In this document: one piece after another, positions 19,219-54,241 of the stretch
Position numbering within the stretch: position 1 is the first letter of the stretch
Layout of the letters: every line of letters starts with the position of its first letter
Assembly: GCF_007833355.1 (NCBI RefSeq)
Contig: NZ_CP020914.1
Coordinates: forward strand, 1,908,047 to 1,972,046
Length of the DNA stretch: 64,000 bases
DNA from: Denitratisoma sp. DHT3
GTDB taxonomy: Bacteria; Pseudomonadota; Gammaproteobacteria; Burkholderiales; Rhodocyclaceae
Reading direction: 5' to 3'
The notes under the pieces: generated by a model
Database searches by the model: none
What the model was told of the DNA's origin: nothing
What the model saw: only the letters and a program-made list of their open reading frames with translations
Translations under genes and position numbers: made by a program

Positions 19219-19233
19219 GGCAATAATTGCCGT
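19219..19233. promoter_or_regulatory. Palindrome CGGCAA-N3-TTGCCG between fleS and fliF
   Basis: CGGCAATAATTGCCG has perfect 7-bp arms. It lies 9 nt upstream of the fliF -24 element (centre about -42) and 60 nt from the fleS ATG. It is identical in its arms to sites before flgK, flgB and flhB. Proposed as an activator or operator site serving this divergent region. Confidence 0.75.
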
Positions 19234-19241
19234 TAATTGCT

Positions 19242-19257
19242 GGAACTCCGCTTGCTT
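19242..19257 (+). promoter_or_regulatory. sigma54 promoter of the fliF operon
   Basis: TGGAACTCCGCTTGCT matches TGGCACG-N4-TTGCW at 10 of 12 positions, including all of TTGCT. The predicted start is near 19268, about 53 nt before the fliF ATG. A second inverted repeat (GGGCAAAAATGCCC, 19277-19290) follows the start point. Confidence 0.85.
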
Positions 19258-19320
19258 TGCGGCGACACAATCGGCATGGGCAAAAATGCCCGCACATCAG
19301 GACACCACCACAAGCAGCGA

Positions 19321-20952
19321 ATGGCAAACGAAAGTCCCGCTTCGGCGGAATTCCCCCTCTCCCTGGCCGCCTTCAACCGGTTGCCGACGCGCCTCAAGAT
19401 TGCCGCCATGGTGGGCGTGGCGATCGCCGTGACCCTGGTCGTCGGCGCCTGGCTCTGGGCTCGCCAGCCCGAATATGCCGTGCTGTTTTCCAACCTGAGC
19501 GAACAGGATGGCGGCCAGATCGTCACCACCCTGCAGCAGCAGAACGTGCCTTATCGGTTCTCCGAGGGCGGCGGCGCCATCCTGGTGCCTTCGAATCAGG
19601 TTCATGACATCCGGCTGCGCATGGCGGCGCAGGGGATTCCCAAGGGCGGGCTGGTCGGCTTCGAGGTCATGGAGAACCAGAAGCTGGGCGCCAGCGTGTT
19701 CCTGGAGCAGATCAATTACCAGCGCGCCCTGGAGGGCGAACTGGCACGCACCATTTCCACCATCTCCTCGGTCAAGGGCGCCCGGGTCCATCTGGCCATC
19801 CCCAAGCAGTCGGCCTTCCTGCGCGACGAGCAACGCCCCACCGCCTCGGTGCTGGTCAATCTGCATCCAGGGCGCAGCCTGGACGGCATTCAGATCGCGG
19901 GCATCGTGCACCTGGTGTCGGCCAGCGTGCCCGACCTCAACCCGTCCAGCGTCAGCGTGGTGGACCAGGATGGGAACCTGATTTCCCAGCAACCGGATTC
20001 CCTGCGCAATTCCGGCCTCGATCCCACCCAGCTGAAATACGTGCGGGAAGTGGAGGCGGGCTACATCAAGCGCATCGAGGCCATCCTGGCGCCCATCGTC
20101 GGCAGCGGCAACGTCCGCGCCCAGGTGACGGCCGACGTCGACTTTTCCCACACCGACCAGGTGGCGGAAACCTACAAACCCAACCCCACGCCCGAAACCG
20201 CCATCCGCAGCCAGCAAACCAACGAGTCCGGCACCGGCCAGCCGCCGGCGGTCGGCGTTCCCGGCGCCCTCAGCAATCAGCCGCCGGTTCCCGCCACCGC
20301 GCCGATCACCACGCCGGCGCCGCCGGGTGGCGCCGCGCCTGGCAGCCAGGGCCAGGCGAACGCCAACTTCTCCCGCAACGCCACGATCAATTACGAACTC
20401 GACAAGACGATTCGCCACGTCAAGGGCGTGCCGGGCGTTATCCGCCGCCTCTCCGTCGCCGTGGTGGTGAATCAAAGGAAGGAAGCCGGCAAACCGAAGG
20501 CGGTCGCCCTGAGCGACGCCGAAATGCGCCAGATCAACGACCTGGTGCGGGAAGCCATGGGCTTCGACAAGGAACGGGGCGATACGCTGAATGTCGCCAA
20601 TGCGCCCTTCAGCGCCGAGGAGGCCAACGCACTGCCCCAGACGCCCCTTTGGAAAGATCCGGGATTCATCGCCACGCTGAAGGATCTGGCGCGCTATCTC
20701 GCCGCCGCCGTGATCGCCTACCTGGTATGGACTAGACTGCTGAAACCGCTGTTCAGGAAGCTTTCCGAAATTCCGCTGCCCAAAGCCTATGAGGAACTGC
20801 AAGAGGAACTGGCTTCCGAGGGCGGCGTCCATCATGGTCCGCCGCGGTCATTCGACGCCAAGATGGATCATGCGCGCAACATGGCGCGGGAGAATCCCAA
20901 GGCTATCGCAAACGTAATCAAGGAGTGGATCAGTGGCGGCGAGTCCCGATGA
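19321..20952 (+). CDS. fliF: Flagellar MS-ring protein FliF
   Basis: FliF forms the inner-membrane MS ring around the export gate and anchors the C ring through FliG. The 543 residues contain an N-terminal transmembrane helix (about 25-46), the periplasmic ring-building motifs (YAVLFSNLSEQDGGQI, VKGARVHLAIPKQSAF, SASVPDLNPSSVSVVDQDG), a Pro/Gly-rich loop (about 305-345), a second transmembrane helix (about 460-477) and a C-terminal FliG-binding tail. The ATG at 19321 is chosen. First gene of fliFGHIJ; it overlaps fliG by 20 nt. Confidence 0.96.
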   Translation: MANESPASAEFPLSLAAFNRLPTRLKIAAMVGVAIAVTLVVGAWLWARQPEYAVLFSNLSEQDGGQIVTTLQQQNVPYRFSEGGGAILVPSNQVHDIRLRMAAQGIPKGGLVGFEVMENQKLGASVFLEQINYQRALEGELARTISTISSVKGARVHLAIPKQSAFLRDEQRPTASVLVNLHPGRSLDGIQIAGIVHLVSASVPDLNPSSVSVVDQDGNLISQQPDSLRNSGLDPTQLKYVREVEAGYIKRIEAILAPIVGSGNVRAQVTADVDFSHTDQVAETYKPNPTPETAIRSQQTNESGTGQPPAVGVPGALSNQPPVPATAPITTPAPPGGAAPGSQGQANANFSRNATINYELDKTIRHVKGVPGVIRRLSVAVVVNQRKEAGKPKAVALSDAEMRQINDLVREAMGFDKERGDTLNVANAPFSAEEANALPQTPLWKDPGFIATLKDLARYLAAAVIAYLVWTRLLKPLFRKLSEIPLPKAYEELQEELASEGGVHHGPPRSFDAKMDHARNMARENPKAIANVIKEWISGGESR

Positions 20953-21937
20953 GGGGATTGAAAAAAGTGCGATCCTGCTGCTGTCCCTGGGCGAGGATGA
21001 GGCTGCATCCGTCCTGAAGAATCTGGCACCCAAGGAGGTGCAGAAAATCGGCCACGCCATGGCCGCGCTCAAGCAGGTGTCTCGGCACCGCATCGAGGCG
21101 GTGCTGGACGATCTGCATGCCGAAACCCTGGATGGCGCGCCGGTCGCCGTGGACGAGGCCGCCATCCGCGCGATGCTGACCAAGGCCCTGGGCGACGACA
21201 AGGCGGCCAACCTGATTGCCCGCATTCTCCAGGGGGGCGACACCGCCGGCATCGAGAGCCTGAAATGGATGGATGCACCGACGGTGGCCGACCTGATCCG
21301 CAACGAGCACCCGCAGATCATCGCGACCATCCTGGTCCATCTGGAGTTCGACCACGCCGGCGAGATCCTCAAGCTCTTCACCGAACGGCTGCGCAACGAC
21401 GTGCTGCTGAGGATCGCCACCCTCGACGGCGTCCAGCCCGCCGCGTTGCGCGAGCTCAACGAGGCGCTGACGAAACTGATGGCCGGCGCGGCGTCCAATG
21501 TGAAAAAGGCCGCGATCGGCGGCGTCCGCCACGCCGCCGAGATCCTGAACTTCGTGGGGCAGCAGGCCGAAACCGCCATTGTCGATAATGTGCGCGAGTA
21601 CGACCCGGACCTGGCCCAGAAAATCCTCGACGAGATGTTCGTCTTCGAAAACCTGCTCGACCTCGACGACCGGGGCGTGCAGCTGCTGCTGCGCGAAGTC
21701 CAGTCCGACTCGCTCATCATCGCCCTCAAGGGCGCATCGCCGGAATTGCGGGAAAAGATCTTCAAGAACATGTCCCAGCGGGCCGCCGAAATGCTGCGCG
21801 AGGATCTGGAGTCCAAGGGGCCGGTCCGCCTGTCCGAGGTCGAGGGCGAGCAGAAGGAAATCCTCAAGATCGCCCGTCGCCTGGCGGACGAAGGGCAGTT
21901 GGTCCTGAGCGGCGGCGGCGAAGATCAGTTCGTCTGA
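20933..21937 (+). CDS. fliG: Flagellar motor switch protein FliG
   Basis: C-ring protein that receives torque from the stators. At 334 residues it has normal length: N-terminal FliF-binding domain, middle domain with [13 protein letters not shown], and C-terminal domain with the charged torque helix ([19 protein letters not shown], then [21 protein letters not shown]). It starts at GTG (20933) inside the fliF 3' end. AAGGAG at 20920-20925 is placed 7 nt before it, which decides this start. Confidence 0.97.
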
Positions 21938-21949
21938 CGCTGACCGGTC

Positions 21950-24027: not shown

Positions 24028-24068
24028 TCAGGCTGGGCTGGCTGTCCAGCGGCCAAGAAAAACATCCC

Positions 24069-24524
24069 ATGAGCACGCGCTTCCCCCTGCAAACCCTGTT
24101 GGATCTCTCCCAGATGCGGCTGGACGATGCCACGCGCCAGTTGGGAGAACTGATCGCCGGCGAACAGGAAGCCAACCAGCGCCTGGAAATACTGGCCCAA
24201 TATCGCGCGGAATATCAGAGCCGCTTCATGGCGGCGGCGCAAAACGGGCTGGGGCGCGACCAGTGGCGCAATTATCAATCCTTCCTGGACCGACTCGACG
24301 CCGCCATCGACCAGGCCCGCCTGGGAGTCGACCTGTCCCGCCAGCGAACCGCCGCCGGACAGAAGGAATGGCTCCACAAGCGGGGACAGGTCAAGGCCTA
24401 CGACACCCTGGCCGAGCGCCATGTGGATCGGCTGCGCCATGCCGAGCAGCGCCGAGACCAGAAAGCCCAGGATGAGCACGCGGCGCGGCGACCGGAAAAC
24501 CCGGAATCCCCGCACGAGAACTGA
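24069..24524 (+). CDS. fliJ: Flagellar export protein FliJ
   Basis: Coiled-coil central stalk that inserts into the FliI ring, like the gamma subunit of F1, and contacts FlhA. The 151-residue protein is almost entirely a charged helix, starting FPLQTLLDLSQMRLDDATRQ and containing QWRNYQSFLDRLDAAIDQA. The assignment is supported by its position after fliI. The reading ends just before the sigma54 promoter of fliK. Confidence 0.92.
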   Translation: MSTRFPLQTLLDLSQMRLDDATRQLGELIAGEQEANQRLEILAQYRAEYQSRFMAAAQNGLGRDQWRNYQSFLDRLDAAIDQARLGVDLSRQRTAAGQKEWLHKRGQVKAYDTLAERHVDRLRHAEQRRDQKAQDEHAARRPENPESPHEN

Positions 24525-24539
24525 TCCTCCCGAGTCACA

Positions 24540-24555
24540 TGGCACGCCGCTTGCA
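24540..24555 (+). promoter_or_regulatory. sigma54 promoter of fliK-fliR
   Basis: TGGCACGCCGCTTGCA is a full match to TGGCACG-N4-TTGCW. The predicted start is near 24566, 29 nt before the fliK ATG. It divides fliFGHIJ and fliKLMNOPQR into separately initiated units. Confidence 0.9.
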
Positions 24556-24594
24556 TCAAGGGCGCTGATATCTTGCCTTTTCAGGGCCCCCGCC

Positions 24595-25728
24595 ATGCCT
24601 GAATTACTCGCCACGCCCAGCGCCAACATCGTCGGCACGATCGCTCCCAATAGCGGCACAGCCGCGATGGCCGGCAATGACAACGCCGCGCCGGAGCTGC
24701 CCTTCGCCGCCCTGCTCCAGGCGCGCCTGGCTTCCGCCACGTCGGCCACCAGTCCGCAAGCCGATCTGAACACGCTGCAGGCCTTGCTGGCCGACAAAGC
24801 GGCGCCCGACACCACCGGACGGGAATCTCCGATCGATCCGGGCACGATGATTGCCGGTCTTCTGCTTTTACAGGGGAACGCCATATCGAATGGCGGAGCA
24901 AAACCCGGTACCGACGGGGCCACGGAAGCCCAAACAGAGCCCCGGACGACCTTGCTCGCCGACCCGTCGGCCGCCTCCACGGCGCTACCCGCGATGGTTC
25001 CGGTCCAAATCGGCCCCTCCCATGATGGCCAGTTGCAGGACCGCGGAGATCAAACGAATGCCTCCGCGCCGCGGGGCACGCTGACGATGGCAGAACATGG
25101 CCGATCCGCCGCGGCAACGGCAATTGTTGCCGACGCTCAGGCGGTCGAGGCGCAGACGGATGGAAATGCCGGCAAAACCGGCACCGAGGGAAGCGGCTCC
25201 GGTCAATTCCAGGAGTTGCTGGTCGCGGCGCAGCACGCCCAGGGCATGACCAAGGCGGCATCGTCACCATCGCCCGCCGCCCCGACGCGCATCGACAGCC
25301 CGGTGGGCACGACCGCCTGGAACGATGAACTGGGAGACAAACTGGTCTGGATGTCCAACCGAAACGAAAGCCGCGCCGAACTGGTGCTCAACCCGCCGCA
25401 TATGGGGCGGATCGAAGTCTCCATCACGGTGAACGGCGATCAGGCCAATGCGGTCTTCGTCTCGGCCAACCCGGCCGTGCGGGACGCCCTGGAAGGGGCG
25501 CTGCCGCGCCTCCGGGAAGTCCTGGCCGACGCCGGCGTCAGGCTGGATCAGGCGCATGTCGGGTCGGACTCCCCCGGCCACCAACCCGATGGCCGCGAAT
25601 CAGGCGATAATCCGCGCCACCAGCAGAGGCGGGAAGAGCGGGATTTCGTGCCCGGTCTGATCCCATCAGCATCCGCCGCGTCCGGCTGGCAAACGGGTGG
25701 AGTTGGCCTGGTGAACACCTTCGCCTAA
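24595..25728 (+). CDS. fliK: Flagellar hook-length control protein FliK
   Basis: Secreted molecular ruler that stops hook growth and switches FlhB to filament substrates. The 377 residues include a long low-complexity Ala/Gly/Thr-rich N-terminal ruler and the C-terminal Flg_hook domain (about 240-330: ESRAELVLNPPHMGRIEVSI, VRDALEGALPRLREVLADAG). The frame is open back into fliJ, but the ATG at 24595 lies just after a perfect sigma54 promoter. It is the canonical paralog of the FliK-like gene at 5644. Confidence 0.92.
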   Translation: MPELLATPSANIVGTIAPNSGTAAMAGNDNAAPELPFAALLQARLASATSATSPQADLNTLQALLADKAAPDTTGRESPIDPGTMIAGLLLLQGNAISNGGAKPGTDGATEAQTEPRTTLLADPSAASTALPAMVPVQIGPSHDGQLQDRGDQTNASAPRGTLTMAEHGRSAAATAIVADAQAVEAQTDGNAGKTGTEGSGSGQFQELLVAAQHAQGMTKAASSPSPAAPTRIDSPVGTTAWNDELGDKLVWMSNRNESRAELVLNPPHMGRIEVSITVNGDQANAVFVSANPAVRDALEGALPRLREVLADAGVRLDQAHVGSDSPGHQPDGRESGDNPRHQQRREERDFVPGLIPSASAASGWQTGGVGLVNTFA

Positions 25729-30447: not shown

Positions 30448-30912
30448 CTATTTCTTCACCATCGCGACCACGCCTTCGGCGGTGCGTTGGGAGCCGATGG
30501 CGCTGGAGTCCAGGCCCTCGCGGTACTCCAGGATCTGGAACTCGGAAAAGCCGCCCGTCTGCATCAGTTCGCGGGCGCGGCGCTGGAACACGGCACGGGC
30601 TTCTCCCGCGCCGCCCGTGTAATAGCGCTTCATTTTCAGCGACAGGAGATAGCGGTCCTCGGGGAACTTGGCTTCCTGGATCTCCCAGTTGGGTGCCGCG
30701 GGATCGACCACCGAATAGGCGATCGCCGCCACCCCGGCCCAGTAGACGATCTGCTCGCCGGTCAAGGCCAGCTTGGAGCTGACATCGATCTGCTTGTCCA
30801 TCACGCTCTTGCAGCCGACCAGAGCGGGCAGCAGCAGGATCGCCACAAGCAGATACGATCTTGCGAATCTCGAACTCGTGGCCTGTCGCCTCTCTCTCAT
30901 GAGTCCGCTCAT
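30448..30912 (-). CDS. Hypothetical lipoprotein after flgL
   Basis: The 154-residue protein has a positively charged N-terminus, a hydrophobic helix and a lipobox (LVGC, cysteine near residue 34), so it is probably a membrane-anchored lipoprotein. No known family was recognised. The mature part is soluble, with a C-terminal segment (GFSEFQILEYREGLDSSAIG, then QRTAEGVVAMVKK). The ATG at 30912 overlaps the flgL stop (TGATG), suggesting coupling; an inner ATG at 30900 is an alternative. Co-transcription with flgKL hints at an envelope or flagellum role, but this is inference only. Confidence 0.75.
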   Translation of the reverse strand: MSGLMRERRQATSSRFARSYLLVAILLLPALVGCKSVMDKQIDVSSKLALTGEQIVYWAGVAAIAYSVVDPAAPNWEIQEAKFPEDRYLLSLKMKRYYTGGAGEARAVFQRRARELMQTGGFSEFQILEYREGLDSSAIGSQRTAEGVVAMVKK

Positions 30913-33020
30913 CACAGGTAATTGAACAAGGACATCCCGGAAATCTTCATGAAGGACTGCTGTGCGGCCTGCAGTTCGACCTGCATCCGCGTCAGATCGG
31001 TGATGGCCTTGGCGTAATCCAGATCCTGCAGATTGGACAGCGTACTTGCATATTGCAGATCGAGGCTTCCGGACACGTTCCCCAGGTCCTCGACTTCCGC
31101 CAGTTGCGTACCGATGCCGGCACGCACTCGTGAAATGTTGTCCTCGATCTTGGAAAGGTTGGTCAGGACAAAACCCAGCTTGTTCTGCAGACTTGCGTTG
31201 CCCGTCCCGCCGGCCGGCGCCGCCGGTCCCTCGATGGCCTTGATCAGATCCGCCAGCGTGTCGAACACGCTCTGCGTCGTGCTGTTCTTCAGGCTGAACG
31301 CATCGCCGCTGGCCGGCGTGCCCTGGATCGTCACCGAAACCCCGAAGTCCTTGTAGGGAGCGGCCAGATTGGAAAATGCCACCGGATCGCCGCTCTTGAA
31401 CACGTGGGTGTAGGTGTTGCCGCTGCCGCCACTGGTCGATGCCGTGTCGGTGAACAGGGAGCGCTCGGTCCGGGTATCCACCAGATCGTAATAGACCGGC
31501 GCATTGGGGCTGAGGTCTGCCGGATCCTTCCAGAACCGCACCTCCAGCTGTTTGCTGTTGTAGGGGCTGTTCCATTTGGCCGCATCGAGCACCTCCCCGG
31601 CGCCGATGATGCCGCTGCCCATGTTCTCCGCCGCCACCATCTTCGGTGCGGTGACGAAGGTGCCGTTGCCTTGAGGGTCGGTGCCGGCCTTGATGGTGAA
31701 GGCGTCGCCGCTGGCGGGATTGCCGGTGACGGTCACCGAAGCGCCGAAATCGAAAGCTGGTGGCGCAGCGGAAGAAAAGGAAATCGGCGTACCACTGGTG
31801 TAGGCGTGGGTGTAGCTTCCAGTCGCACCGGTGGCGGACGGGGCGCCGGTAAATAGCGACTTGTTCGTGGTCGTATCGACCAGATCGTAATAGGTCGCCC
31901 CCGCCGCGCCGATGGAACCCGCGGCATCCACCCAGAAACGCACCTCCAGGTTCTGGCTGTTGCCGGCCGTACTCCATTTCACCGGATCGGTGACCACGCC
32001 TTGGTCGATGACCGCGTTGGCATGGGTGATCGTGGGCGGCGATGTCTTTAGGCCGCCGCTGACATTGTCGATGGAAAATTTATCGCCATCGGCGGGATTG
32101 CCGGTGACGGTCACCGAAGCGCCGAAGTCGTTGCTCGGCGGATTGTAGGCGGCCGCCAAGCCGGAGAACGCGATCGGCGCACCGCTGGTGTAGGCATGGG
32201 TGTAGCTTCCAGTCGCACCGGTAGCAGACGGGCTGCCCGTAAACAACGAGTCGCCGGTTCCGGCGTCGACCAGATCGTAATAGGTCGCCCCCGCCGCGCC
32301 GATGGAACCCGCGGCATCCACCCAGAAGCGCACCTCGATGCTGTTCGGCGCGGTGGCCCAGTCCGTCGGGCTGGTGATGGTGCCCGCATCGATGCCGACG
32401 CTGTGGATGTTCGATGGCCGCTCCGTCGGCAGACCGGTGACGAAAGTGCCGTTGCCGTTCGAAATGCGCATGAACACATCATTGCCCGACTGGCTGATCG
32501 GCAGATTCCTGGAGCCGGACACGCGCAAGGTCCGCAGTCCATCGTCGCCGATATAGTTCACGCCGCTGTCGACGCTGCCGGCAAAAGGCTTGTTGCTGCC
32601 CTGATAGCCGGAGAACACGTATTGACCGGTGCCATCGGTGCTGTTGGCCAGCGCCACCAGCTCATCGAAGCGGGAACGCAATTCCGTGGCGATGCTCTTG
32701 CGGTCGGCGGCGGAAAGCGTGGCGTTCCCTGCCTGAACGGTCAGTTCGCGAATCCGCACCAGCAGATCGGTGGTTGAGGACAACTGTCCGTCCATGAGGC
32801 CCAGGGCGCTTTTGGCATTGCCCTGGGCTGTGACGTACTGGGCGTTGATTTCCTTGGACTGGGTGACTTCCAGCGCACGCGCCGCCGCCACCGGGTCGTC
32901 GGAGGGTGTCAGGATGCGCCGGCCGCTGGACACCTGTTGCTGGGTGCGCAACAAGGAACTGGTGCGTTGCTGGATGCTGTTGACGCCGCTGTCGAAAATC
33001 ATGCCGGTGCTGACGCGCAT
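30912..33020 (-). CDS. flgL: Flagellar hook-filament junction protein FlgL (HAP3), enlarged
   Basis: FlgL forms the outer junction ring between hook and filament. Conserved ends: N-terminal MRVSTGMIFDSGVNSIQQRTSSLL and C-terminal LQDLDYAKAITDLTRMQVEL, then QQSFMKISGMSLFNYL. At 702 residues it is roughly twice the usual length. The surplus is three tandem modules of about 110-130 residues (nt about 32380 down to 31270), each with a VRFW...YYDLVD...SLFT...YTH core. It lies 17 nt after flgK. Confidence 0.94.
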   Translation of the reverse strand: MRVSTGMIFDSGVNSIQQRTSSLLRTQQQVSSGRRILTPSDDPVAAARALEVTQSKEINAQYVTAQGNAKSALGLMDGQLSSTTDLLVRIRELTVQAGNATLSAADRKSIATELRSRFDELVALANSTDGTGQYVFSGYQGSNKPFAGSVDSGVNYIGDDGLRTLRVSGSRNLPISQSGNDVFMRISNGNGTFVTGLPTERPSNIHSVGIDAGTITSPTDWATAPNSIEVRFWVDAAGSIGAAGATYYDLVDAGTGDSLFTGSPSATGATGSYTHAYTSGAPIAFSGLAAAYNPPSNDFGASVTVTGNPADGDKFSIDNVSGGLKTSPPTITHANAVIDQGVVTDPVKWSTAGNSQNLEVRFWVDAAGSIGAAGATYYDLVDTTTNKSLFTGAPSATGATGSYTHAYTSGTPISFSSAAPPAFDFGASVTVTGNPASGDAFTIKAGTDPQGNGTFVTAPKMVAAENMGSGIIGAGEVLDAAKWNSPYNSKQLEVRFWKDPADLSPNAPVYYDLVDTRTERSLFTDTASTSGGSGNTYTHVFKSGDPVAFSNLAAPYKDFGVSVTIQGTPASGDAFSLKNSTTQSVFDTLADLIKAIEGPAAPAGGTGNASLQNKLGFVLTNLSKIEDNISRVRAGIGTQLAEVEDLGNVSGSLDLQYASTLSNLQDLDYAKAITDLTRMQVELQAAQQSFMKISGMSLFNYL
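31270..32385 (-). repeat. Three tandem modules inside flgL
   Basis: Module 1 is about 32385-32045, module 2 about 32010-31680, module 3 about 31600-31270. Modules 1 and 2 share long identical nucleotide stretches, for instance 32268-32330 versus 31878-31940. Module 3 is diverged. All three end in an SVT-GxP-GD-F segment. Recent duplication or gene conversion of modules 1 and 2 is likely. Confidence 0.9.
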
Positions 33021-33037: not shown

Positions 33038-35962
33038 TTATCTGCCTATATTCAGCAACTCATCAAAGAGCTTGCTGGAGATATTGATGATCTTTGCCGC
33101 CGCCTGGTAGGCCTGCTGGTAACGCAGCAGGTTGGCGGCCTCTTCGTCCAGGTTGACGCCGGACTGCGACTGGATCGCCGTCTCGCCCTGCTTCACCAGA
33201 TTCTGCTGGGTCGTCAAGGTCACATCCACTTCCCGCGCCTTGTTGCCGATCTGGCTGACGATTTGGGAATAAGCGGACTGAAAGGTGGATGTGCCGTCCG
33301 CCATGGCATTGAGCGTCTGCAAGGCCGCCATCAACCCGGCATTGCGATTGTCGGAAACTCCCGACGGATTGGGACCCACGGTAAAGGTGTCGCCGTCGAC
33401 GGCCGAACCGTTGATCGAGAAGCTCAGGCCGTTGAAGCTCAATTCCGCCCCCGAAATGTAGGGCACGTAATCCGTGGTCTGGCCGATCACATAGGACGTC
33501 GGGCGGCCGCCGGGCGGCGTCACCGTGACCACGCTGCCCACCGGGAAGCCGGTCAGCCGGTCCGGCAGCGGCGGCACGGCGGCGGCCTGGGCGGTGTTGA
33601 AGCGCAAGGTGATCGACGCCGTCGGCAGACTGTTGTTGCCCGTGACCGGAGCACTGGTCATGATGCCTGTGCCGCTGTTGCCGACACTGGAAAGTGTGAC
33701 GGCCGATCCGGGGCCCACGGTGGCCGACGTAATCACCAACTGGTTATTGCTGTTCAGCGTTACCGAGGCGGGGCTGGGCAGAGGAGGGGAGCCAAATGCA
33801 GTATCCACAGCCGTTTGCACTGCCGCCCGCAGGGTCGCCGGGGTGTAGGTTCCCTGCGGAATGCTCACCGTCACCGCCGCTCCGCCATCCAGCGACAAGC
33901 GGAACTGATCATTGCTTCCCGTCGTGATGGTGGTGGAGCCGGCCAAAGACAGTCCGGCGGTGGCGAACCCTGCCGCCGCCGGCGGACCGGCAACAGCAGC
34001 GGTATTCGTCGGGATGCCGAAGAGCGTTGCAAATCCGGTGTTGCCGATGCTGGGCGGCGCGATGGGTGGCGCGGTGTTGGCAGCGAAAGTGAACACATCG
34101 CCATCCGCCGGCGTACCGCTGATCGTCGCCCCCACGCCATTGACGTTGATGATGGCGCCGGCGGTGTAGGGAATCCGGGCGTTCTCGCTGGTGACCTGAT
34201 ACGTGGTCGAGCCGACCTTGACCGTCGCGCCGACCGGAAAGCCGACCAGGCTGTCGCTCGATGCCTCGTAGCGAACCGAGAACGGCGCCTGCAGCAGCAC
34301 CGACGCATCCGCCACCGTACCGCTGCTGATGGTCGCCGTACCGGCATTCGTCAGCGCTGCGGAAGTCCGGATCGGAGCCGCCAGGGCGATGTTCGTCGGA
34401 TCGGAAATCGCCAGCGAGATGTCCCGCGCGGCATTGCGTGTGGGCCGGATCAGGAAACTGTCGTCGACGGCCATCTTTCCGCTCAATTGCAGGTCGAACC
34501 CCTGCGGCGCGGCATTGGTCATCAGATCGGCCAACGCGGAGGCCTGGTCGATCCCGGTACCGCGCCATATCTGGTTGTCCGAGATGCGTTCCAGGGTGAA
34601 ACTGTTGGGACCGACCAGGGTCAGGCGGTAATCGCTGTCGGTCAGGGTCTGGATGTTGGACCCGGTCGAAGCCAGCGTCGCCGTCCCCGCGTTGCCGGCG
34701 TAGGCGGTCACCCGCTTGTCCGCCGCCGCGCCGGGCTGGATCAGGAAAGTATCGCCATTCTGGGGCGCGCCCGAAGCCAGACTGAAGCGAATCCCGTCCA
34801 CGACCTGGGGCAGAGTGGAAAACGTGCCCAGGGTCTTGTCGTCCGCCAGCCGGGTGATGGTGTACCCGCCCTGCGTCTTGTCGTAACGCAGCATGTAATC
34901 GCTGTCGACGATGTTGGCGGAGAGCACGCCGGTTCCTGCGTTGGAGGGGGCGCCCAAAGTCGAGAGCTGGATCGGGTTGAAGAAATTTCCGCCCATACTC
35001 CCCGTCAGATCCTGACCCAGGACATGCTGGGTGTTGAACTGGGTCGCCAGCGAGAGAGCGATACGGCCGATGGCATTCTGGGCCGGGTCCAGCGTCTCGC
35101 GCCGAAAAGCCAGCAGGCCGCCGAGATTGCCGCCACTGACCAGGGATTCGGGAATCGCCTGGAGATTGCCGGCAGGATCCTTGAGCCCGATGCGCACGCT
35201 GGACAGATCCTCCTGTCCGGGCATTGCCGCCAATTGATAAGTCTGGGTGCCGACGACCAAAGGCTGGCCCGTCCCGAAGAAAATGCTGTAGCTGCCATCA
35301 CTTTCCTGGTGAGTGGTGACGCGGATCTCCTGATTCAGGTCCGCGACCAACTGGTCGCGCTGGTCATACAGATCGTTGGCGGGCTGCCCTCCCCCCGCCT
35401 GGGCGACGAGGATGCGCTGATTGATGTCGGCGATCTGCAGGACATAGGAATTGATGGTCGTGACTTCGGTGCTGATCTGGGAATTTATCCCGTTGCGCAT
35501 TTCCCCCAGCTGCTGGTCGAGGCCCTGGAAGCGCGCCACCAGGGCTTGCCCGGCGGAGAGTATGGCCTGCCGCGCGGGGACCGACGCAGGATTGGCGGCC
35601 GCTTCGTCGATCGCCTTGAAGAATCCTTGCAGCGCGGGGCTCAGGCCCGCACTGGGGTCGGCCAGCAGATTGTCGATCTGGCCGATCTGGTTCGAATAGG
35701 TTTGCAGCGCGGCGGCGTTGGTTTGCGCGGTCAGCAACTGGGTGGTCAAAAGGTTGTTGTAGACCCGCTGCACGGTCAGGACGCTGGTCCCCTGCCCGAG
35801 AAAACCCGAGCCGGTCAGCATCGGCGTATTGGTCGTCTGGAGAATCTGCTGACGGTTGAAACCAGCGGTCGATGCGTTGGAGATGTTGTGGCTGGTCGTC
35901 AGAATGCCCATCTGAGCCGCATTCAGACCTGACACGCTGATATTGAAGAGACTGTTGCCCAT
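33038..35962 (-). CDS. flgK: Flagellar hook-associated protein FlgK (HAP1), enlarged
   Basis: FlgK is the hook-proximal junction protein and the first filament-type substrate. It has the conserved N-terminus (LFNISVSGLNAAQMGILTTS, HNISNASTAGFNRQQ) and C-terminus (EAANLLRYQQAYQAAAKIIN). At 974 residues it is about 300-400 longer than typical. The surplus holds about four diverged modules ending in G-x-DGD-x-F (for example PQNGDTFLIQPG, PADGDVFTF, AVDGDTFTVGPN) plus one SIPQGTYTPATL-type insert also found in FlgE and FliD. A perfect sigma54 promoter precedes it. Confidence 0.95.
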   Translation of the reverse strand: MGNSLFNISVSGLNAAQMGILTTSHNISNASTAGFNRQQILQTTNTPMLTGSGFLGQGTSVLTVQRVYNNLLTTQLLTAQTNAAALQTYSNQIGQIDNLLADPSAGLSPALQGFFKAIDEAAANPASVPARQAILSAGQALVARFQGLDQQLGEMRNGINSQISTEVTTINSYVLQIADINQRILVAQAGGGQPANDLYDQRDQLVADLNQEIRVTTHQESDGSYSIFFGTGQPLVVGTQTYQLAAMPGQEDLSSVRIGLKDPAGNLQAIPESLVSGGNLGGLLAFRRETLDPAQNAIGRIALSLATQFNTQHVLGQDLTGSMGGNFFNPIQLSTLGAPSNAGTGVLSANIVDSDYMLRYDKTQGGYTITRLADDKTLGTFSTLPQVVDGIRFSLASGAPQNGDTFLIQPGAAADKRVTAYAGNAGTATLASTGSNIQTLTDSDYRLTLVGPNSFTLERISDNQIWRGTGIDQASALADLMTNAAPQGFDLQLSGKMAVDDSFLIRPTRNAARDISLAISDPTNIALAAPIRTSAALTNAGTATISSGTVADASVLLQAPFSVRYEASSDSLVGFPVGATVKVGSTTYQVTSENARIPYTAGAIINVNGVGATISGTPADGDVFTFAANTAPPIAPPSIGNTGFATLFGIPTNTAAVAGPPAAAGFATAGLSLAGSTTITTGSNDQFRLSLDGGAAVTVSIPQGTYTPATLRAAVQTAVDTAFGSPPLPSPASVTLNSNNQLVITSATVGPGSAVTLSSVGNSGTGIMTSAPVTGNNSLPTASITLRFNTAQAAAVPPLPDRLTGFPVGSVVTVTPPGGRPTSYVIGQTTDYVPYISGAELSFNGLSFSINGSAVDGDTFTVGPNPSGVSDNRNAGLMAALQTLNAMADGTSTFQSAYSQIVSQIGNKAREVDVTLTTQQNLVKQGETAIQSQSGVNLDEEAANLLRYQQAYQAAAKIINISSKLFDELLNIGR

Positions 35963-35986: not shown

Positions 35987-36001
35987 CGGCAAAGCTTGCC
36001 G
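35987..36001. promoter_or_regulatory. Palindrome CGGCAA-N3-TTGCCG in the flgK leader
   Basis: CGGCAAAGCTTGCCG lies between the predicted flgK transcription start (about 36015) and the ATG at 35962, at about +15 to +29. Its arms are identical to the three other copies in the window. From memory, FlrC in Vibrio is reported to bind downstream of the start site at some flagellar promoters, so this location does not exclude an activator site. Confidence 0.75.
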
Positions 36002-36025: not shown

Positions 36026-36041
36026 AGCAACACCCGTGCCA
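36026..36041 (-). promoter_or_regulatory. sigma54 promoter of flgKL
   Basis: On the minus strand TGGCACGGGTGTTGCT is a 12/12 match to TGGCACG-N4-TTGCW. The leader to the flgK ATG is about 53 nt and contains the CGGCAA palindrome. It separates flgKL from the flgBCDEFGHIJ unit. Confidence 0.92.
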
Positions 36042-40940: not shown

Positions 40941-42872
40941 TCAGCGCAGATTCACCAGGGTTTGCAATACGCTGTCCTGGGTCTTGATGGTCTGGGCATT
41001 GGCCTGGTAGACCCGCTGCTGGGTGATCATGTCCACCAGCTCCTTGGTGAGGTCGACGTTGGACTCTTCAATGGCGGCGGATTGAATCGCCCCCAGCCGG
41101 CCTTGCCCCGGCGTACCTGGAATGGGCTGCCCGGAGTCGGCGGTCTCCGCCCACTGGTTGCCCCCCAGCGAAAGCAGGCCGTTGGGATTATTGAAGCTCA
41201 CCAATATCACCTGTCCCATTTTCTGGGATTTCCCGTTGGAATAATTTCCCTGGATGGTACCGTCGGCGGCCACCGACAGACCGGCAAGCTGGCCCGAGCT
41301 GTAGCCGTCCTGCAAAAGCTGATTGACGCCGAAACTGATGCCGTATTGGGTCGTGCCAGTCAGATCCAGCTCGAAACTGAGGGGAAGCGCGCCGTTGTTG
41401 AGCGTGTATTGCTGCATCAAGGGCATCGGGGTCTGGGCATCAAGAATGCCGCTGGCGTTGAATTTGAGCAAGGTCGGTCCGATCAGCCCACCCTTGTCGA
41501 GCGTCGTATACATCTGCCAGGTGTTGCCCTCCGACGTCTTGGCGAAATACAGGGTCAGGTTGTGCGGATTGCCCAGGGAGTCGTACACCGTCTGAGCCGT
41601 CGATGCGGTATAGCTCAGCGTCTTGTCCGGATCGAACTTGTCCTCGCCGTTGTGGGCACCGAACAGACCGGCGACGGCGTTGCCGCCGGTGACGAACACT
41701 GCGGAACCTGCTCCCGTGGTCGCCGAAGCGATATCCAACACCCCAGCCGTCAGGGTGGCCGTTCCCGCAGTTCCCAATTGCAAGTTGATCTGACCCACGA
41801 GGTCGTCAGCAGGCGGAGTACCGGTTCCCGTGGGAGGGTCGTTATAGATGCCTGGCGGCAAAGTCACCGTATGCGGCGCACCATCCACGACCACGCTGAA
41901 AGTGTCGTTCTGCCCCTTGGTGACCGTCAGCGGAAAAGTGATCGCCGCAATTCCGACGTATTGGCCTCCCGTCGCGGGAGGACCGTCGACTCCCACTGTC
42001 GGCCCGCCGACTTGCGTCGTCAGGCCGAGGTCGACTGTCGCACTGGAAGCGGAGATGCTGATGGACGAACCATTCCCCAAGCTGCCGACGGTGCCGCGGC
42101 TATTCGAAGTGAATTGCAACAGACCGCCGCTGGTCGCGGTCACCTCCACCGTGGCGCCGGACGTGCCGAGCGCCGTGTTGATCAGCGTGGTCAAGGTCGT
42201 GGCCATTTCGGTGGCGGTGTACGTGCCGTCGGGAATGGTCACCGAAACAGGTTTGCCGTCCACCCACAGATCCAGTTGGTTGTTGGGTGTCGCTGCGGCG
42301 ATCGTCACGGAGCCCGTCCCGCCACCGAATGCCTGGCCGGCGGCCAGCATCCCCTGCGTCATCTGGGTCGGGGCCGTCGCCCGGGAATCCAGGTTCAACT
42401 GGAGCTGGCTTTTCTCGGTTACCTTCGGCGGGATGTTGGTGGTGGTCAGCCGCAGGTCAACGAAGTTGCCCGGCACGATCGTGTTGTTGTCAGCCGCATA
42501 TCCGGTCAGCCGCTGGCCGCCGGCACCGACGATGTAGCCGTCCTTGTCGACGGAGAACTGCCCGCTGCGGGTGTAGGTGATGGTTCCACCGCCGGACATG
42601 CGGTACATGCCGGAACCGTTGATCGCCAGATCGAGGGTATTGTTGGTGGACGTGATGTTCCCTTGCGTGAATTGTTGGGCAATTCCCGCCACATTCGATC
42701 CGATACCGATCTGTGCGCCGCCGACACCGGACAATGACGATGCGAAGACATCGGCGAATCGCACGGCCGCCGCCTTGAAACCCACCGTATTCGCGTTGGA
42801 AACGTTGTTGCCGATCGCATCCAGCGCCTTGGCCGATACGTTGAGCCCGCTCAAACCTTGTTGAAAACCCAT
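40941..42872 (-). CDS. flgE: Flagellar hook protein FlgE, enlarged
   Basis: Subunit of the universal-joint hook. It has the N-terminus GFQQGLSGLNVSAKALDAIG, NNVSNANTVGFK, and the C-terminus ESNVDLTKELVDMITQQRVY, QANAQTIKTQDSVLQTLVNL. The protein has 643 residues against about 400 in enterics. The surplus (about residues 185-420) contains two copies of an insert with VTIPDGTYTATEM- and VTLPPGIYNDPP-type cores, related to inserts in FlgK and FliD. It lies 26 nt after flgD. Confidence 0.96.
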   Translation of the reverse strand: MGFQQGLSGLNVSAKALDAIGNNVSNANTVGFKAAAVRFADVFASSLSGVGGAQIGIGSNVAGIAQQFTQGNITSTNNTLDLAINGSGMYRMSGGGTITYTRSGQFSVDKDGYIVGAGGQRLTGYAADNNTIVPGNFVDLRLTTTNIPPKVTEKSQLQLNLDSRATAPTQMTQGMLAAGQAFGGGTGSVTIAAATPNNQLDLWVDGKPVSVTIPDGTYTATEMATTLTTLINTALGTSGATVEVTATSGGLLQFTSNSRGTVGSLGNGSSISISASSATVDLGLTTQVGGPTVGVDGPPATGGQYVGIAAITFPLTVTKGQNDTFSVVVDGAPHTVTLPPGIYNDPPTGTGTPPADDLVGQINLQLGTAGTATLTAGVLDIASATTGAGSAVFVTGGNAVAGLFGAHNGEDKFDPDKTLSYTASTAQTVYDSLGNPHNLTLYFAKTSEGNTWQMYTTLDKGGLIGPTLLKFNASGILDAQTPMPLMQQYTLNNGALPLSFELDLTGTTQYGISFGVNQLLQDGYSSGQLAGLSVAADGTIQGNYSNGKSQKMGQVILVSFNNPNGLLSLGGNQWAETADSGQPIPGTPGQGRLGAIQSAAIEESNVDLTKELVDMITQQRVYQANAQTIKTQDSVLQTLVNLR

Positions 42873-43991: not shown

Positions 43992-44399
43992 TCACTGTCC
44001 CTGGATTGCCATTTGCAGGGTTTTGAACCTGCCGCTCAGGAAAGTCAGCATCGCTTCGACCTGCACCGAGTTCTCGATGAACGCCGCCCGCTCGACATCC
44101 ATGTCCACCGTGTTGCCATCCACCGCCCCCTGGAATTCGGTACGGTATTGCAGATCGACGCCGTTCCGGCCGCCCGTGGCGGAATCCAGGTGCCCCGAGG
44201 CGGTGCGGGCCAGCGCCAGCGCTCCCTGGCTTGTCCCGCCCAGGGCCTGGCTCAGGGCCGATTTGAAGTCGAAATCCCGGGCCTTGTAGTGAGGCGTGTC
44301 CGCATTGGCGATATTCGAGGCCAGCAGTTCCTGTCGGTAGGAACGCAGGTTCAATGCCGCTTGCTGCAACCGGAACTCGCTATCAATACGATCGATCAT
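43992..44399 (-). CDS. flgB: Flagellar proximal rod protein FlgB
   Basis: Rod subunit of 135 residues, first gene of flgBCDEFGHIJ. Typical pattern: LNLRSYRQELLASNIANADT, PHYKARDFDFKSAL, and the C-terminal NTVDMDVERAAFIENSVQVE, LTFLSGRFKTLQMAIQ. A strong sigma54 promoter lies 34-49 nt upstream, and the CGGCAA palindrome about 140 nt upstream. Confidence 0.97.
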   Translation of the reverse strand: MIDRIDSEFRLQQAALNLRSYRQELLASNIANADTPHYKARDFDFKSALSQALGGTSQGALALARTASGHLDSATGGRNGVDLQYRTEFQGAVDGNTVDMDVERAAFIENSVQVEAMLTFLSGRFKTLQMAIQGQ

Positions 44400-44432: not shown

Positions 44433-44448
44433 TGCAGATACCGTGCCA
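44433..44448 (-). promoter_or_regulatory. sigma54 promoter of the flgB operon
   Basis: On the minus strand TGGCACGGTATCTGCA matches TGGCACG-N4-TTGCW at 11 of 12 positions. The predicted start is near 44422, about 23 nt before the flgB ATG. Confidence 0.88.
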
Positions 44449-44532: not shown

Positions 44533-44547
44533 CGGCAACATTTGCCG
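44533..44547. promoter_or_regulatory. Palindrome CGGCAA-N3-TTGCCG between flgB and flgA
   Basis: CGGCAACATTTGCCG lies at about -118 from the predicted flgB start, the classical position of a sigma54 enhancer, and 87 nt before the flgA ATG. Its arms are identical to those of the three other sites. Confidence 0.78.
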
Positions 44548-48648: not shown

Positions 48649-48681
48649 CGATGAACATGGATGAGCCGTTGTAGCGGCCAA

Positions 48682-50956: not shown

Positions 50957-53052
50957 TTGTTGGCTCCAATGATCGCCGTCACCTTGATCGTGCGTGAATC
51001 GGGCACTTCAGCGTTGGCAATGACTTTAAGTTGAGGGACGGCGCGCCGCAGGAATCGGGACAGCAGCCAGCGCAACTGCCCCGGCACGAGCAGTACCGGC
51101 GGCAGACCCAGATCCTCCTGGCGCTGCGCAGCGGTGGCCGTTTCCCGCAGCAGCGTGTCGGCCAGCCCCGGCTCCAGGGCGCCTTCGCCACCGCTCAGCA
51201 GTGCCTGCGCCAGGACGCGCTCCAGGCCCGGCTCGATCGCCATCACCTGCATTTCGCCGTTGCCGGGGAAGAGTTGCTGAACGATGGCCCGCCCCAGGGC
51301 GATGCGCACCTGGCTGGTGAGTTCCAGAGGATCCTGGCTGCGGGGCGCATACTCCGCCAGGGTCTCGATGATGGTCCGCATGTCGCGGATGTTGACGGCC
51401 TCTTCCAGGAGGTTCTGCAACACCCGCTGCACCGTGGAGAGCGACAGCTGTTTCGGCACCAGGTCCTCGATCAGCTTCGGCGCGTCGGTCGCGATGTGGT
51501 CCAGCAAGGACTGCGCTTCCTGCCGGCCCAGCAATTCGGCGGCGTGGGACAGGATGACGTGATTCAGGTGGGTCGCCACCACCGTCGAGGCATCCACCAC
51601 GGTATAGCCGAGCGCGTGGGCCTGGTCGCGGAGATTGGCCTCGACCCAGATCGCCGGCAGATCGAAGGCCGGGTCGCGGGTCTGCATACCGGGCAGAGGA
51701 CCGCCCACTCGCCCCGGGTTGATGGCCAGATACATGCCGGGGTACGCCTCGCCGATGCCGATCTCGACCCCCTTCAAGGCGATGCGATAGGCATTCGGTT
51801 TCAACTCCAGATTGTCGCGAATGTGCACCGGCGCGGCCAGAAAGCCCACTTCCTGGGCAAATTTCTTGCGCAGGCCGCGGATGCGCTTGAGAAGGTCGCC
51901 TTCCTGTCCCTGATCCACCAACGGAATCAGCCGATAGCCGACTTCCAGCCCCAGTACATCGACCGGCGCCACGTCGTTCCAGCTCGCCTCCAGGTTGTCC
52001 GACTCCCCGCCCGACGCCGCCGGGGCCGAGGCCTCCTGAGCCTCAGCCGCGGGACTGGCCTGTTGCTTGAGCTTCCAGTAGGCAAGGCCGCCGATGAGGG
52101 TGGCCATCAACAGGAACACCAGATGCGGCATCCCCGGAATCAGCCCCATGATGCCGAGGATGGAGGCCGTCAGGATCAGCGCCGACGGATTGCCGAAAAT
52201 CTGGCCGATGAATTGCTGGCCGATGTCCACCCCGTCGTCGCCCACCCGGGTCACGACCAGGCCGGCGGCGGTGGAAATGATCAGCGCCGGAATCTGGGCG
52301 ACCAGGCCGTCGCCGATGGTCAGCAGGGTATACACCTTCGCGGCGTCCGCCGCCGCCATGTCGTGCTGCAACACGCCGACGATCAGGCCGCCGACGATAT
52401 TGATGATCAGGATCAGAATCCCGGCGACGGCGTCGCCCCGCACGAACTTGGACGCACCGTCCATGGAGCCGTAGAAGTCGGCCTCCTGCGCGACGGTCGA
52501 ACGGCGCTTGCGCGCCTCGTCCTCGCCGATCAGGCCGGCATTGAGGTCGGCGTCGATCGCCATCTGCTTGCCGGGCATCGCATCCAGGGTAAAGCGCGCC
52601 GAAACCTCGGCGATGCGGCCGGCGCCCTTGGTGATCACCACGAAGTTGATCACGGTCAGGATCACGAACACCACGATGCCGACCGTGTAGTTGCCGCCGA
52701 CCAGGAAGTGGCCGAAGGCCTCGATCACCTTGCCGGCCGCGTCCGGTCCCGCATGGCCGTGGATCAGCACGACCCGTGTCGAGGCGACGTTGAGCGACAG
52801 GCGCAGCAGCGTGGTGACGAGGAGAACGGTGGGGAAGACAGAAAAGTCGAGGGGCTTGATGGTGTACATGGCGACCAGCAGCACCATCACCGCCATCGCG
52901 ATGTTGAAGGTAAACAGCAGATCCAGCGCGAAAGGCGGCAGGGGCAGCACCATCATCGCGAGAATCATGATGATCAGCATCGGCGCGGCAAGGGCGCGCA
53001 AGTTGCCCTTGCCGAACAACTGATTCATCGTCATGGCCAGGGCGTCACTCAC
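50953..53052 (-). CDS. flhA: Flagellar export gate protein FlhA
   Basis: Nonameric export-gate component and docking platform for substrate-chaperone complexes. The 699 residues have eight transmembrane segments in the first about 330 residues, the FHIPEP-type motif region (AEVSARFTLDAMPGKQMAID), and a C-terminal cytosolic ring domain (QHDMAAADAAK then LPAIWVEANLRDQAHALGYT). It starts with GTG at 53052, overlapping the flhB stop in GTGA; an in-frame ATG 7 codons on is an alternative. Confidence 0.97.
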   Translation of the reverse strand: MSDALAMTMNQLFGKGNLRALAAPMLIIMILAMMVLPLPPFALDLLFTFNIAMAVMVLLVAMYTIKPLDFSVFPTVLLVTTLLRLSLNVASTRVVLIHGHAGPDAAGKVIEAFGHFLVGGNYTVGIVVFVILTVINFVVITKGAGRIAEVSARFTLDAMPGKQMAIDADLNAGLIGEDEARKRRSTVAQEADFYGSMDGASKFVRGDAVAGILILIINIVGGLIVGVLQHDMAAADAAKVYTLLTIGDGLVAQIPALIISTAAGLVVTRVGDDGVDIGQQFIGQIFGNPSALILTASILGIMGLIPGMPHLVFLLMATLIGGLAYWKLKQQASPAAEAQEASAPAASGGESDNLEASWNDVAPVDVLGLEVGYRLIPLVDQGQEGDLLKRIRGLRKKFAQEVGFLAAPVHIRDNLELKPNAYRIALKGVEIGIGEAYPGMYLAINPGRVGGPLPGMQTRDPAFDLPAIWVEANLRDQAHALGYTVVDASTVVATHLNHVILSHAAELLGRQEAQSLLDHIATDAPKLIEDLVPKQLSLSTVQRVLQNLLEEAVNIRDMRTIIETLAEYAPRSQDPLELTSQVRIALGRAIVQQLFPGNGEMQVMAIEPGLERVLAQALLSGGEGALEPGLADTLLRETATAAQRQEDLGLPPVLLVPGQLRWLLSRFLRRAVPQLKVIANAEVPDSRTIKVTAIIGANK

Positions 53053-54200
53053 GTCTCAGGCACTCCCGGGTCCATCCCTTCCGGCACCGCAAGGGCGGCC
53101 GGTGGCGCGGGCGGCAGCAGCGTCGCGCCGCCGTCGGCGATGAACTGATTGAGTTGATAGACGTAGGCCATCACCTCGGCCACCGCGGTATACAGGGCCT
53201 GCGGAATCTGCTCCCCGATTTCGGCGTGCTTGTAGAGCGCGCGCGCCAGGGGCGGAGCCTCCAGCATCGGAACGCTGTGTTCCTCCGCCAGTTCGCGGAT
53301 GCGCTGGGCCACGTGATTGATGCCCTTGGCGACGATCTGGGGTGCGTCCATGGTTGCCGTGTCGTACTTCAACGCGACCGCGAAATGGGTCGGGTTGGTG
53401 ACCACCACATCGGCCGTGGGCACCTCGGACATCATGCGGCCGCGCGCCATCTCCCGCTGCTGGGAGCGGATGCGCGCCTTGAGGTGGGGATCGCCTTCCA
53501 TCTCCTTCATTTCCTGCCGCAGCTCCTCGCGAGTCATGCGCAGCCGGGAATAGTATTGCCAGAGCTGGAATGGCACATCCAGCAGGACGATCACCGCCAT
53601 GCCGGTGAGCAGCGCCAGCGCAGCGGAAAAAACCAGGCGGAAGTAGCCGTTGATGCCCACCTCGACGGTGCCGCCCACCAGCGAGAACATCGCCTCGCCG
53701 TCATGCCAGATCACCCAGAATACCGTCCCGCCGATCAACAGCGCCTTCAGAATCGCCTTGACCAGCTCGCCCAGGCCGTGCATGGAGATGATGCGCTTGG
53801 CCCCCTGAACCGGGTTCAGGCGGGTGAAGTTGAATGTCAGGGCCTTGGTGGAAAAGACCCAGCCGCCGATCAGGAAGGGTGCCGCCAGTGCCGAGGCCAC
53901 CGTCAGGAAACAGATGGGCGCCACGATCAACAAACCCTCCAGCGAGAGGGAGACCGCCCGCAGCCGCATCGCACCGTCGGAAAACACGGCATCGCGGTCG
54001 AAACTCAAGCCATGGCGCAGCAAGGACTCGGCATGATGGGAGAGGAAGCCGGACAATGCCCACAACCCGGCGGTTCCCGACAGCAGGACGAGGAAAGCCG
54101 TGAGCTCCCGCGACTGAGGGACCTGCCCCTCCTCGCGAGCCTGCTCAATGCGTCGACTCGACGCTGGTTCCGTTCGTTCGAGGTCGCTTTCCTCAGCCAT
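53049..54200 (-). CDS. flhB: Flagellar export switch protein FlhB
   Basis: Membrane protein whose autocleavage changes export specificity from hook to filament. The 383 residues have an N-terminal EPASSRRIEQAREEGQVPQS motif, four transmembrane helices, and the cytoplasmic tail with the cleavage motif NPTH (VVTNPTHFAVALKYDTATM). The ATG at 54200 is used because homology begins there; GAG-rich sequence precedes it. The C-terminal part is homologous to the small protein at 6866. First gene of flhBAFG-fliA-motCD. Confidence 0.96.
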   Translation of the reverse strand: MAEESDLERTEPASSRRIEQAREEGQVPQSRELTAFLVLLSGTAGLWALSGFLSHHAESLLRHGLSFDRDAVFSDGAMRLRAVSLSLEGLLIVAPICFLTVASALAAPFLIGGWVFSTKALTFNFTRLNPVQGAKRIISMHGLGELVKAILKALLIGGTVFWVIWHDGEAMFSLVGGTVEVGINGYFRLVFSAALALLTGMAVIVLLDVPFQLWQYYSRLRMTREELRQEMKEMEGDPHLKARIRSQQREMARGRMMSEVPTADVVVTNPTHFAVALKYDTATMDAPQIVAKGINHVAQRIRELAEEHSVPMLEAPPLARALYKHAEIGEQIPQALYTAVAEVMAYVYQLNQFIADGGATLLPPAPPAALAVPEGMDPGVPET

Positions 54201-54210
54201 GCGCGGAGAC

Positions 54211-54241
54211 TCCCATGACGGCAATTATTGCCGTCATGGGA
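54211..54241. promoter_or_regulatory. 31-nt perfect palindrome between cheA and flhB
   Basis: Fifteen-bp arms surround a single central T. The centre (54219-54233) is CGGCAATTATTGCCG, the same core as the other three sites. The outer extension TCCCATGA/TCATGGGA is unique to this copy. It lies 11 nt upstream of the flhB ATG and 58 nt past the cheA stop. There is no T-tract, so it is more likely an operator/enhancer site than an intrinsic terminator. Confidence 0.75.

Follow-up and report, generated by a model that had tools for sequence, protein, structure and literature searches.

The FlrC sites of the σ54-dependent class III flagellar genes of Vibrio cholerae are reported to be true enhancers that typically lie downstream of the transcription start (PMC6504787), Caulobacter FlbD is reported to repress fliF via ftr4 and activate middle genes (PMC3930126) and to have no cognate kinase (PMC7064773), the Pseudomonas FleS/FleR two-component pair is required for middle genes (PMC3930126), and a FleR motif from high-throughput systematic evolution of ligands by exponential enrichment exists for P. 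syringae (PMC7532196). Here we describe a palindrome, CGGCAA-N3-TTGCCG, that recurs at the flagellar operons in a 64,000-nucleotide stretch of the genome of Denitratisoma sp. DHT3 (contig NZ_CP020914.1; hereafter the window), which named protein matches place in the Rhodocyclaceae near Denitratisoma, and we propose it as the recognition box of the FleR encoded there. This is important because the activators of the FleR/FlrC/FlbD kind, which set the order of flagellum assembly in bacteria with polar flagella, would thereby gain an explicit DNA box that can be searched for.

The locus resembles that of Vibrio in combining a FleR-type response regulator with a soluble kinase and in having downstream sites, here at flgK and fliK. 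The Vibrio flagellar hierarchy uses FlrA. In contrast, FlhC is present here, and the N-terminal domain of a true FleQ/FlrA was found in none of 13 genomes, which gave only weak hits (in the present genome to the receiver of FleR). The FleS/FleR pair is of the same kind as in Pseudomonas, where it stands under FleQ, a protein without a true counterpart among our hits. With FlbD and its ftr elements the locus shares the use of one σ54 activator and one type of element for the activation of middle genes and, as proposed below, the repression of fliF; moreover, a composite of the box and a σ54 promoter precedes flagellar genes in several alphaproteobacteria. Unlike FlbD, FleR is paired with FleS, and it scores 449.7 bits against the FlbD equivalog NF050807 with its cut-off of 750, so we liken it to FlbD in action and do not class it as FlbD. 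Its relatives carry the names FlrC or FleR, its closest solved structure is FlrC, its domain architecture is that of FlrC, and a histidine kinase of the FleS/FlrB kind is encoded next to it.

At enteric class II promoters, FlhD4C2 binds AAATAR-N14-16-YTATTT-like repeats. Similar repeats lie at flhB and fliF, and FlhC is encoded outside the window (G000:C1:3191939-3192454, E-value 4.5e-87), alongside FleS/FleR and σ54-like flagellar promoters. The difference from the enteric system is that a FleR-type palindrome is superposed on these elements and that later genes have σ54-like promoters. FlhDC and FleSR/σ54 hierarchies are usually described separately. The search, which was for FlhC, gave it in this genome and in 36 of 40 relatives, and the combination suggests a hybrid of the FlhC and FleS/FleR hierarchies. 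Enhancers for FleR, FlrC or FlbD are themselves of a known kind. What looks new is the placement of boxes inside fleR and fliK, the FlhDC-FleSR wiring, and the superposition of boxes on FlhDC-type elements; a literature search of partial coverage, which did not extend to the original footprinting work on FlrC and FlbD, returned no statement of the box or of an FlhDC-FleR hybrid.

The palindrome is real and stands well above chance. The window contains six exact copies (starting at 16905, 19218, 25118, 35987, 44533 and 54219) against an expectation of 0.01, and six were never attained in 100 shuffles. An earlier note on this DNA, written from the sequence alone, had rightly expected far less than one chance copy but had counted only four exact sites; three of them are where it placed them (35987, 44533 and 54219), and the fourth starts at 19218 instead of 19219. 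Its statements that exact copies are confined to intergenic DNA and absent from coding DNA do not hold, as the copies at 16905-16919 and 25118-25132 lie within fleR and fliK, respectively. It had also pointed to a degenerate copy at 59687 upstream of cheV2. This copy has two mismatches, and we discarded it as noise because palindromes with two mismatches are no commoner genome-wide (432) than in a reversed-pattern control (420). The genome, a single contig of 3.66 Mb, contains eight exact palindromes compared to one in the control, and seven of these lie within the 55 kb or so between 1907606 and 1962279. Six of the seven are those of the window; the other is found 441 bp before its left end, where two flagellin-like genes diverge (probability of at least seven of eight in this span about 4e-12, the span having been picked after the fact). 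The genome scan proposed in that note places all exact copies but one in the flagellar region.

To relate the boxes to promoters, σ54-type −24/−12 sites were scored with a weight matrix. Of the eight top-scoring σ54-like sites in the window, five precede fliK (24540), flgB (44448), flgK (36041), fliF (19241) and fliE (16547), each at most 600 bp from a box. Relative to the predicted σ54 start, the box centre lies at −118 for flgB and +22 for flgK, just as the note had calculated, and at −42 for fliF, about −391 for fliE and about +560 for fliK. To the left of the window, the box between the flagellin-like genes precedes the σ54-like sequence TGGCACGGTAGCTGCT by 99 bp, the same spacing as at flgB. 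We compared these arrangements with those in Rhodocyclaceae relatives, using the fleR-fliK region of 40 FleR-positive genomes, the flgB-flgK region of 39 and the flhB promoters of 40. The boxes recur at the same promoters across these genomes, mostly with variable middle bases, although not in all relatives at every promoter. At flgB, where the middle bases are diverse, the distance from box to promoter varies with a period of 10.5 bp (R 0.78, n = 29). At flgK, 15 of the 16 boxes with at most one mismatch occupy the identical place and one lies elsewhere, with a gap to the promoter of 40-42 bp in 13 of 15 relatives and of 50-52 bp in the other two. Both genes thus show what is expected of a σ54 enhancer, a conserved dyad on a preferred helix face relative to a predicted −24/−12 promoter. 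At fliE, a σ54-like site scoring at least 10 lies within 300 bp upstream in 37 of 40 relatives, and the phasing of the box is weak (R 0.38 at 10.5 bp, n = 25). A second box 18-24 bp from the first was found in 12 places (eight at fliE, one at flgB and three at flhB).

The occurrence of the box follows that of FleR rather than that of FlhC. FleR was detected at E < 1e-120 in 86 of 101 genomes of the family, and exact boxes number on average 4.4 per FleR-positive genome (n = 86) versus 1.6 per FleR-negative genome (n = 15; p = 2e-6). Six of the 15 FleR-negative genomes have FlgB, and five of these six have no box before flgB. Three near-complete genomes that are FlhC-positive and FleR-negative (G073, G080 and G088) contain no exact box in the 97, 97 and 100 kb around flgB, stretches that take in most flagellar genes in G073 only, and one box with a single mismatch each. 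Conversely, the FlhC-negative, FleR-positive genomes G005, G083, G087 and G022 all have a box before flgB (three exact, one with one mismatch), and three of them (G005, G087 and G022) also have an exact fliK box, G083 being without an entry for FliK; a further FlhC-negative genome, G020, has an exact box before flgB. Since the flgB box is kept without FlhC and exact boxes near flgB are gone without FleR, the box follows FleR and not FlhDC. Based on these data, we consider it probable that FleR dimers recognize CGGCAA-N3-TTGCCG and that the box serves as an enhancer that activates flgB, flagellin, flgK, fliE and fliK.

The two copies in coding DNA are also conserved. Before fliE a box is present in exact form in 26 of 40 relatives and with at most one mismatch in 35, of which 26 and 34, respectively, lie within fleR; in fliK the corresponding numbers are 16 and 33 of 36, at shifting positions. 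Within fleR the box takes one of three positions (around codons 317-325, 327-333 and 381-401), in all but two cases in the frame GCA-NNN-NTT-GCC and with varying encoded residues. In these fleR genes GCA makes up 10.4% of the alanine codons and CTT 5.8% of the leucine codons. The shifting positions, the rare codons and the varying residues argue for selection on the DNA rather than on the protein. A gene may thus carry, in its coding sequence, an enhancer on which its own product is presumed to act.

The boxes at fliF and flhB differ from the others; both coincide with elements that resemble FlhDC-dependent promoters. FlhDC-like repeats were scored out of 12 against the consensus, and a score of at least 10 was reached in 10 of 30 flhB, 12 of 36 fliF, none of 39 flgB and 2 of 33 flgK regions. 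Shuffled sequences reached it in about 1% of cases (7.5% in the set of FlhC-negative genomes, which is AT-rich). At fliF, the spacer of the FlhDC-like repeat consists of the box plus one base, a layout shared by several relatives. The fliF box is exact in 13 of 40 relatives and has at most one mismatch in 28, of which 27 lie within 160 bp of fliF and one at −342. At flhB, the box contains CAATAAT (54230-54224 on the minus strand), a −10-like element some 42 bp away from the midpoint of the repeat AAATAA-N15-CTATTC, and many relatives have a similar element at the same distance. The flhB box is exact in 22 of 40 relatives and has at most one mismatch in 29 (20 and 25 in one set of 30, 2 and 4 in a set of 10); hits of low identity at 10 loci of the fleR region are not counted here. 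In the larger set, 18 of the 20 exact boxes are CGGCAATAATTGCCG, starting 27-36 bp ahead of the start codon. Thus flhB, and fliF in many relatives, look like FlhDC-type class II promoters overlapped by the box. Because the flhB box lies over the putative FlhDC-type −10 element and the fliF box fills the FlhDC-like spacer, bound FleR would be expected to repress this early class, and we tentatively extend the proposal to a shut-down of flhB and fliF by FleR. The earlier idea of one flagellar box bound by FleR is supported by the specificity, the conservation, the co-occurrence and the geometry described above; its corollary that every box is a σ54 enhancer is not.

The sequence of events would then be as follows. 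Once the early parts of the flagellum have been assembled, FleS would phosphorylate FleR, and FleR dimers would occupy the box, at some promoters as paired boxes 18-24 bp apart. FleR would assemble its AAA+ ring and remodel σ54-RNA polymerase, thereby activating flgB and flagellin (both with the box at −118), flgK, fliE and fliK from the distances given above, while phosphorylated FleR at fliF and flhB would block the early promoters as the σ54 phase starts. In this hierarchy, which would be a Rhodocyclaceae hybrid, FleR might act as a two-way switch, an enhancer-binding protein at class III and an operator-binding protein at class II that ends the FlhDC phase; we regard this as possible and offer it as a working model. 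Its value is that the joint FlhDC and FleSR wiring yields a testable account of the hand-over between regulatory stages.

Several observations weigh against this proposal. The relatives are not mutually independent by kinship, so that the p-values are descriptive. A box with at most one mismatch is missing in 17 of 33 relatives at flgK, 12 of 40 at fliF, 11 of 40 at flhB and 5 of 40 at fliE, and three of the four FlhC-negative genomes have no box before fliE. G011 and G066 encode FleR yet contain no exact box genome-wide; boxes with one mismatch lie at flgB, fliE, fliK, fliF and flhB in G011 and at fliF in G066. Conversely, the FleR-negative G108 (79% complete) has a one-mismatch box before flgB, and G073, G080 and G088 have two, one and one exact copies elsewhere in their genomes, which implies a palindrome background above that of the reversed-pattern control. 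Finally, one of the four FlhC-negative fliF regions also scores at least 10 for the FlhDC-like repeat, in what is a tiny sample.

The most serious alternative leaves the activating role of FleR intact and disputes only the repression: FleR would be an activator everywhere, fliF and flhB included, and the overlaps with FlhDC-like and −10-like elements would be accidental. We give this reading somewhat less than an even chance. It draws on fliF, where a σ54-like promoter begins 23 bp past the start of the box. The same distance is found in 15 of 19 scored relatives, two of them with a weak promoter, and GG-N10-GC sits there in 14 relatives. As this promoter is kept in close relatives, fliF may carry two promoters, and the direction of control there could be either. 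The same gene also supplies an argument on the other side, since none of the four FlhC-negative genomes has a box within 160 bp of fliF, compared to 27 of the 36 others (9 of 36 have none). The evidence from flhB speaks against activation throughout. No σ54-like site scoring above 9 lies within 1.1 kb of the flhB box in the window, and the best upstream sites at the loci of 30 relatives score below 9. The middle bases are TAA in 18 of the 20 exact boxes, and 23 of the 25 boxes with at most one mismatch hold ATAAT, unlike those at flgB. In five of five flhB promoters from genomes without detected FleR (three near-complete, two 82-83% complete), the TAAT of the −10-like element is kept while the palindrome arms are absent. 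Of the four FlhC-negative genomes, three have no box at flhB, and that of G022 lies at −117.

A different σ54 activator, or a master regulator of the FleQ type, is unlikely to be the protein that binds the box. The family sharing the architecture of FleR is large, FleR itself matching 111 NCBIfam families, but in the 13 genomes searched FleQ is represented only by the weak receiver-domain hits, and the boxes lie beside and within fleSR and track FleR. It is still less likely that FlhDC binds the palindrome as part of an FlhDC box. FlhC is indeed encoded and the fliF palindrome does lie inside an FlhDC-like repeat, but flgB and flgK lack such a repeat, and for the boxes at σ54 promoters FlhDC is largely refuted as the binder by the FlhC-negative and FleR-negative relatives described above. 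We also consider it improbable, to a slightly greater degree, that the copies work at the RNA level, as leader hairpins or terminators. The flhB copy lies within a 31-base perfect inverted repeat, and the region folds with a z-score of −6.1; however, the additional stem pairs are absent in 11 of the 18 relatives that bear the same 15 bases, and we rejected the flhB hairpin because this stem extension is not conserved. Three other folded sites have z-scores of only −0.4 to −1.0, and at flgB the box precedes the promoter. That the copies represent a dispersed repeat or arose by chance can practically be dismissed, for although 5 of the 13 exact copies in G020 share their centre and nearby sequence, the density is strongly unequal (seven of the eight copies of the present genome lie in 55 kb of its flagellar region) and the middle bases and flanks differ among sites and relatives.

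The box is not restricted to the family. A composite pattern (exact box, 70-100 bp, TGGCAYN6TGCW) was used to scan a collection of 84,980 species and returned at least 119 stretches, of which the 80 listed were examined; a few chance hits would be expected, as estimated by hand on the assumption of uniform composition. Of these 80 loci, 61 precede flagellar genes, in alpha-, beta- and gammaproteobacteria, so that the box precedes flagellar genes across three proteobacterial classes. When the gene that follows the promoter was compared with the window proteins, the best match was FlgA or a rod or hook protein at 58 loci (FlgB 34, FlgF 8, FlgG 6, FlgE 6, FlgH 2, FlgI 1 and FlgA 1); Pfam adds two flagellins and one FliQ, plus one weak FliK match outside the 61. 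The remaining 18 loci have no flagellar match to window proteins, and the Pfam scan covered five of them (two of the others have no reading frame). The flagellar hits include Rhodocyclaceae, Vogesella, Paludibacterium, Thiobacillus, Candidatus Thiodiazotropha, Stappia, Bosea, Devosia and Opitutus. The gaps fall into clusters around 74, 85 and 95 bp (R 0.51 at 10.5 bp).

Table 1. Coordinates of the boxes, promoter-like elements and genes discussed here. Positions are those of the window; a dot in the strand column denotes an element without strand. Counts refer to relatives with an exact box and with a box of at most one mismatch.
Feature	Position	Strand	Remarks
fliE	16166..16492	-	
σ54-like promoter GGGCACGTCGTTTGCT of fliE	16532..16547	-	by matrix score
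fleR	16549..17910	-	receiver, σ54-activation and Fis-type helix-turn-helix domains; PF00072, PF00158 and PF02954 above cut-off; proposed binder
box in fleR coding sequence	16905..16919	.	centre ~391 bp upstream of predicted fliE σ54 start
fleS	18014..19159	-	PAS + HisKA + HATPase kinase adjoining fleR
FlhDC-like inverted repeat AAATAG-N16-TTAATT at fliF	19211..19238	.	read from sequence
box in fleS/fliF divergent region	19218..19232	.	
σ54-like promoter TGGAACTCCGCTTGCT of fliF	19241..19256	+	begins 23 bp past box start
fliF	19321..20952	+	
σ54-like promoter TGGCACGCCGCTTGCA of fliK	24540..24555	+	top-scoring site in window
fliK	24595..25728	+	also called as open reading frame 24421-25728
box in fliK	25118..25132	.	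about +560 from predicted fliK σ54 start
flgK (974 amino acids)	33038..35962	-	
flgK box	35987..36001	.	at +22; exact 12/33, at most one mismatch 16/33
σ54-like promoter TGGCACGGGTGTTGCT of flgK	36026..36041	-	by matrix score
flgB	43992..44399	-	
σ54-like promoter TGGCACGGTATCTGCA of flgB	44433..44448	-	by matrix score
flgB box	44533..44547	.	at -118; exact 29/39, at most one mismatch 37/39
flhB	53049..54200	-	
flhB box	54219..54233	.	between cheA and flhB (both -), 18 bp before flhB start codon
FlhDC-like inverted repeat AAATAA-N15-CTATTC at flhB	54256..54282	-	upstream of the gene; read from sequence

Of 38 additional exact copies chosen among the matches listed for FleR-positive relatives, eight lie beside rod, hook or export genes and two beside a FliD homologue. 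The neighbours of the remaining 28 match no window protein tried, save for one FleR paralogue, and these copies do not establish a wider regulon. Two additional exact copies came from the FleR-negative G124. In G001, a close relative, six of the eight exact copies of the genome were located. At L328 (G106) and L340 (G020), strong σ54-like sites are followed by exact boxes after 48 and 131 bp; these could possibly be further regulon members, though their neighbours are among those without a match to the window proteins tried. In G020, five of the 13 exact boxes (L339, L341, L345, L346 and L347) share their centre and a σ54-like sequence 486 bp off, which suggests one repeated element bearing the palindrome. 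In Rhodospira (L197:3-191) and in an acidobacterium (L225:4644-4961), a box and a σ54-like promoter precede short open reading frames that share the residues NPLQHIP and have no Pfam match.

The only exact copy outside the flagellar region of the present genome (L001, at about 485.3-485.9 kb of G000) lies within a gene for a 210-amino-acid protein (L001:968-1600, minus strand), downstream of a good σ54-like promoter, TGGCATACCAATTGCG. The protein has no Pfam or NCBIfam match. Of its 494 homologues, few among the 120 listed are named, and these are mostly from Rhodocyclales or relatives of Gallionella. None of the 38 additional copies chosen from FleR-positive relatives has this gene beside it.

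The axial proteins encoded in the window look unusually long, namely FlgK, FlgE (643 amino acids, 40941-42872), a protein with a flagellin N-terminal domain (702 amino acids, 30912-33020) and a flagellin that enters the window with its C-terminal 772 amino acids (open reading frame 192-2510), and possibly contain large outer-domain insertions. This last reading frame is the end of one of the two divergent flagellin-like genes that flank the box to the left of the window. Directly downstream of fliE, a 430-amino-acid protein with a C-terminal hemerythrin domain is encoded on the minus strand (14765-16057).

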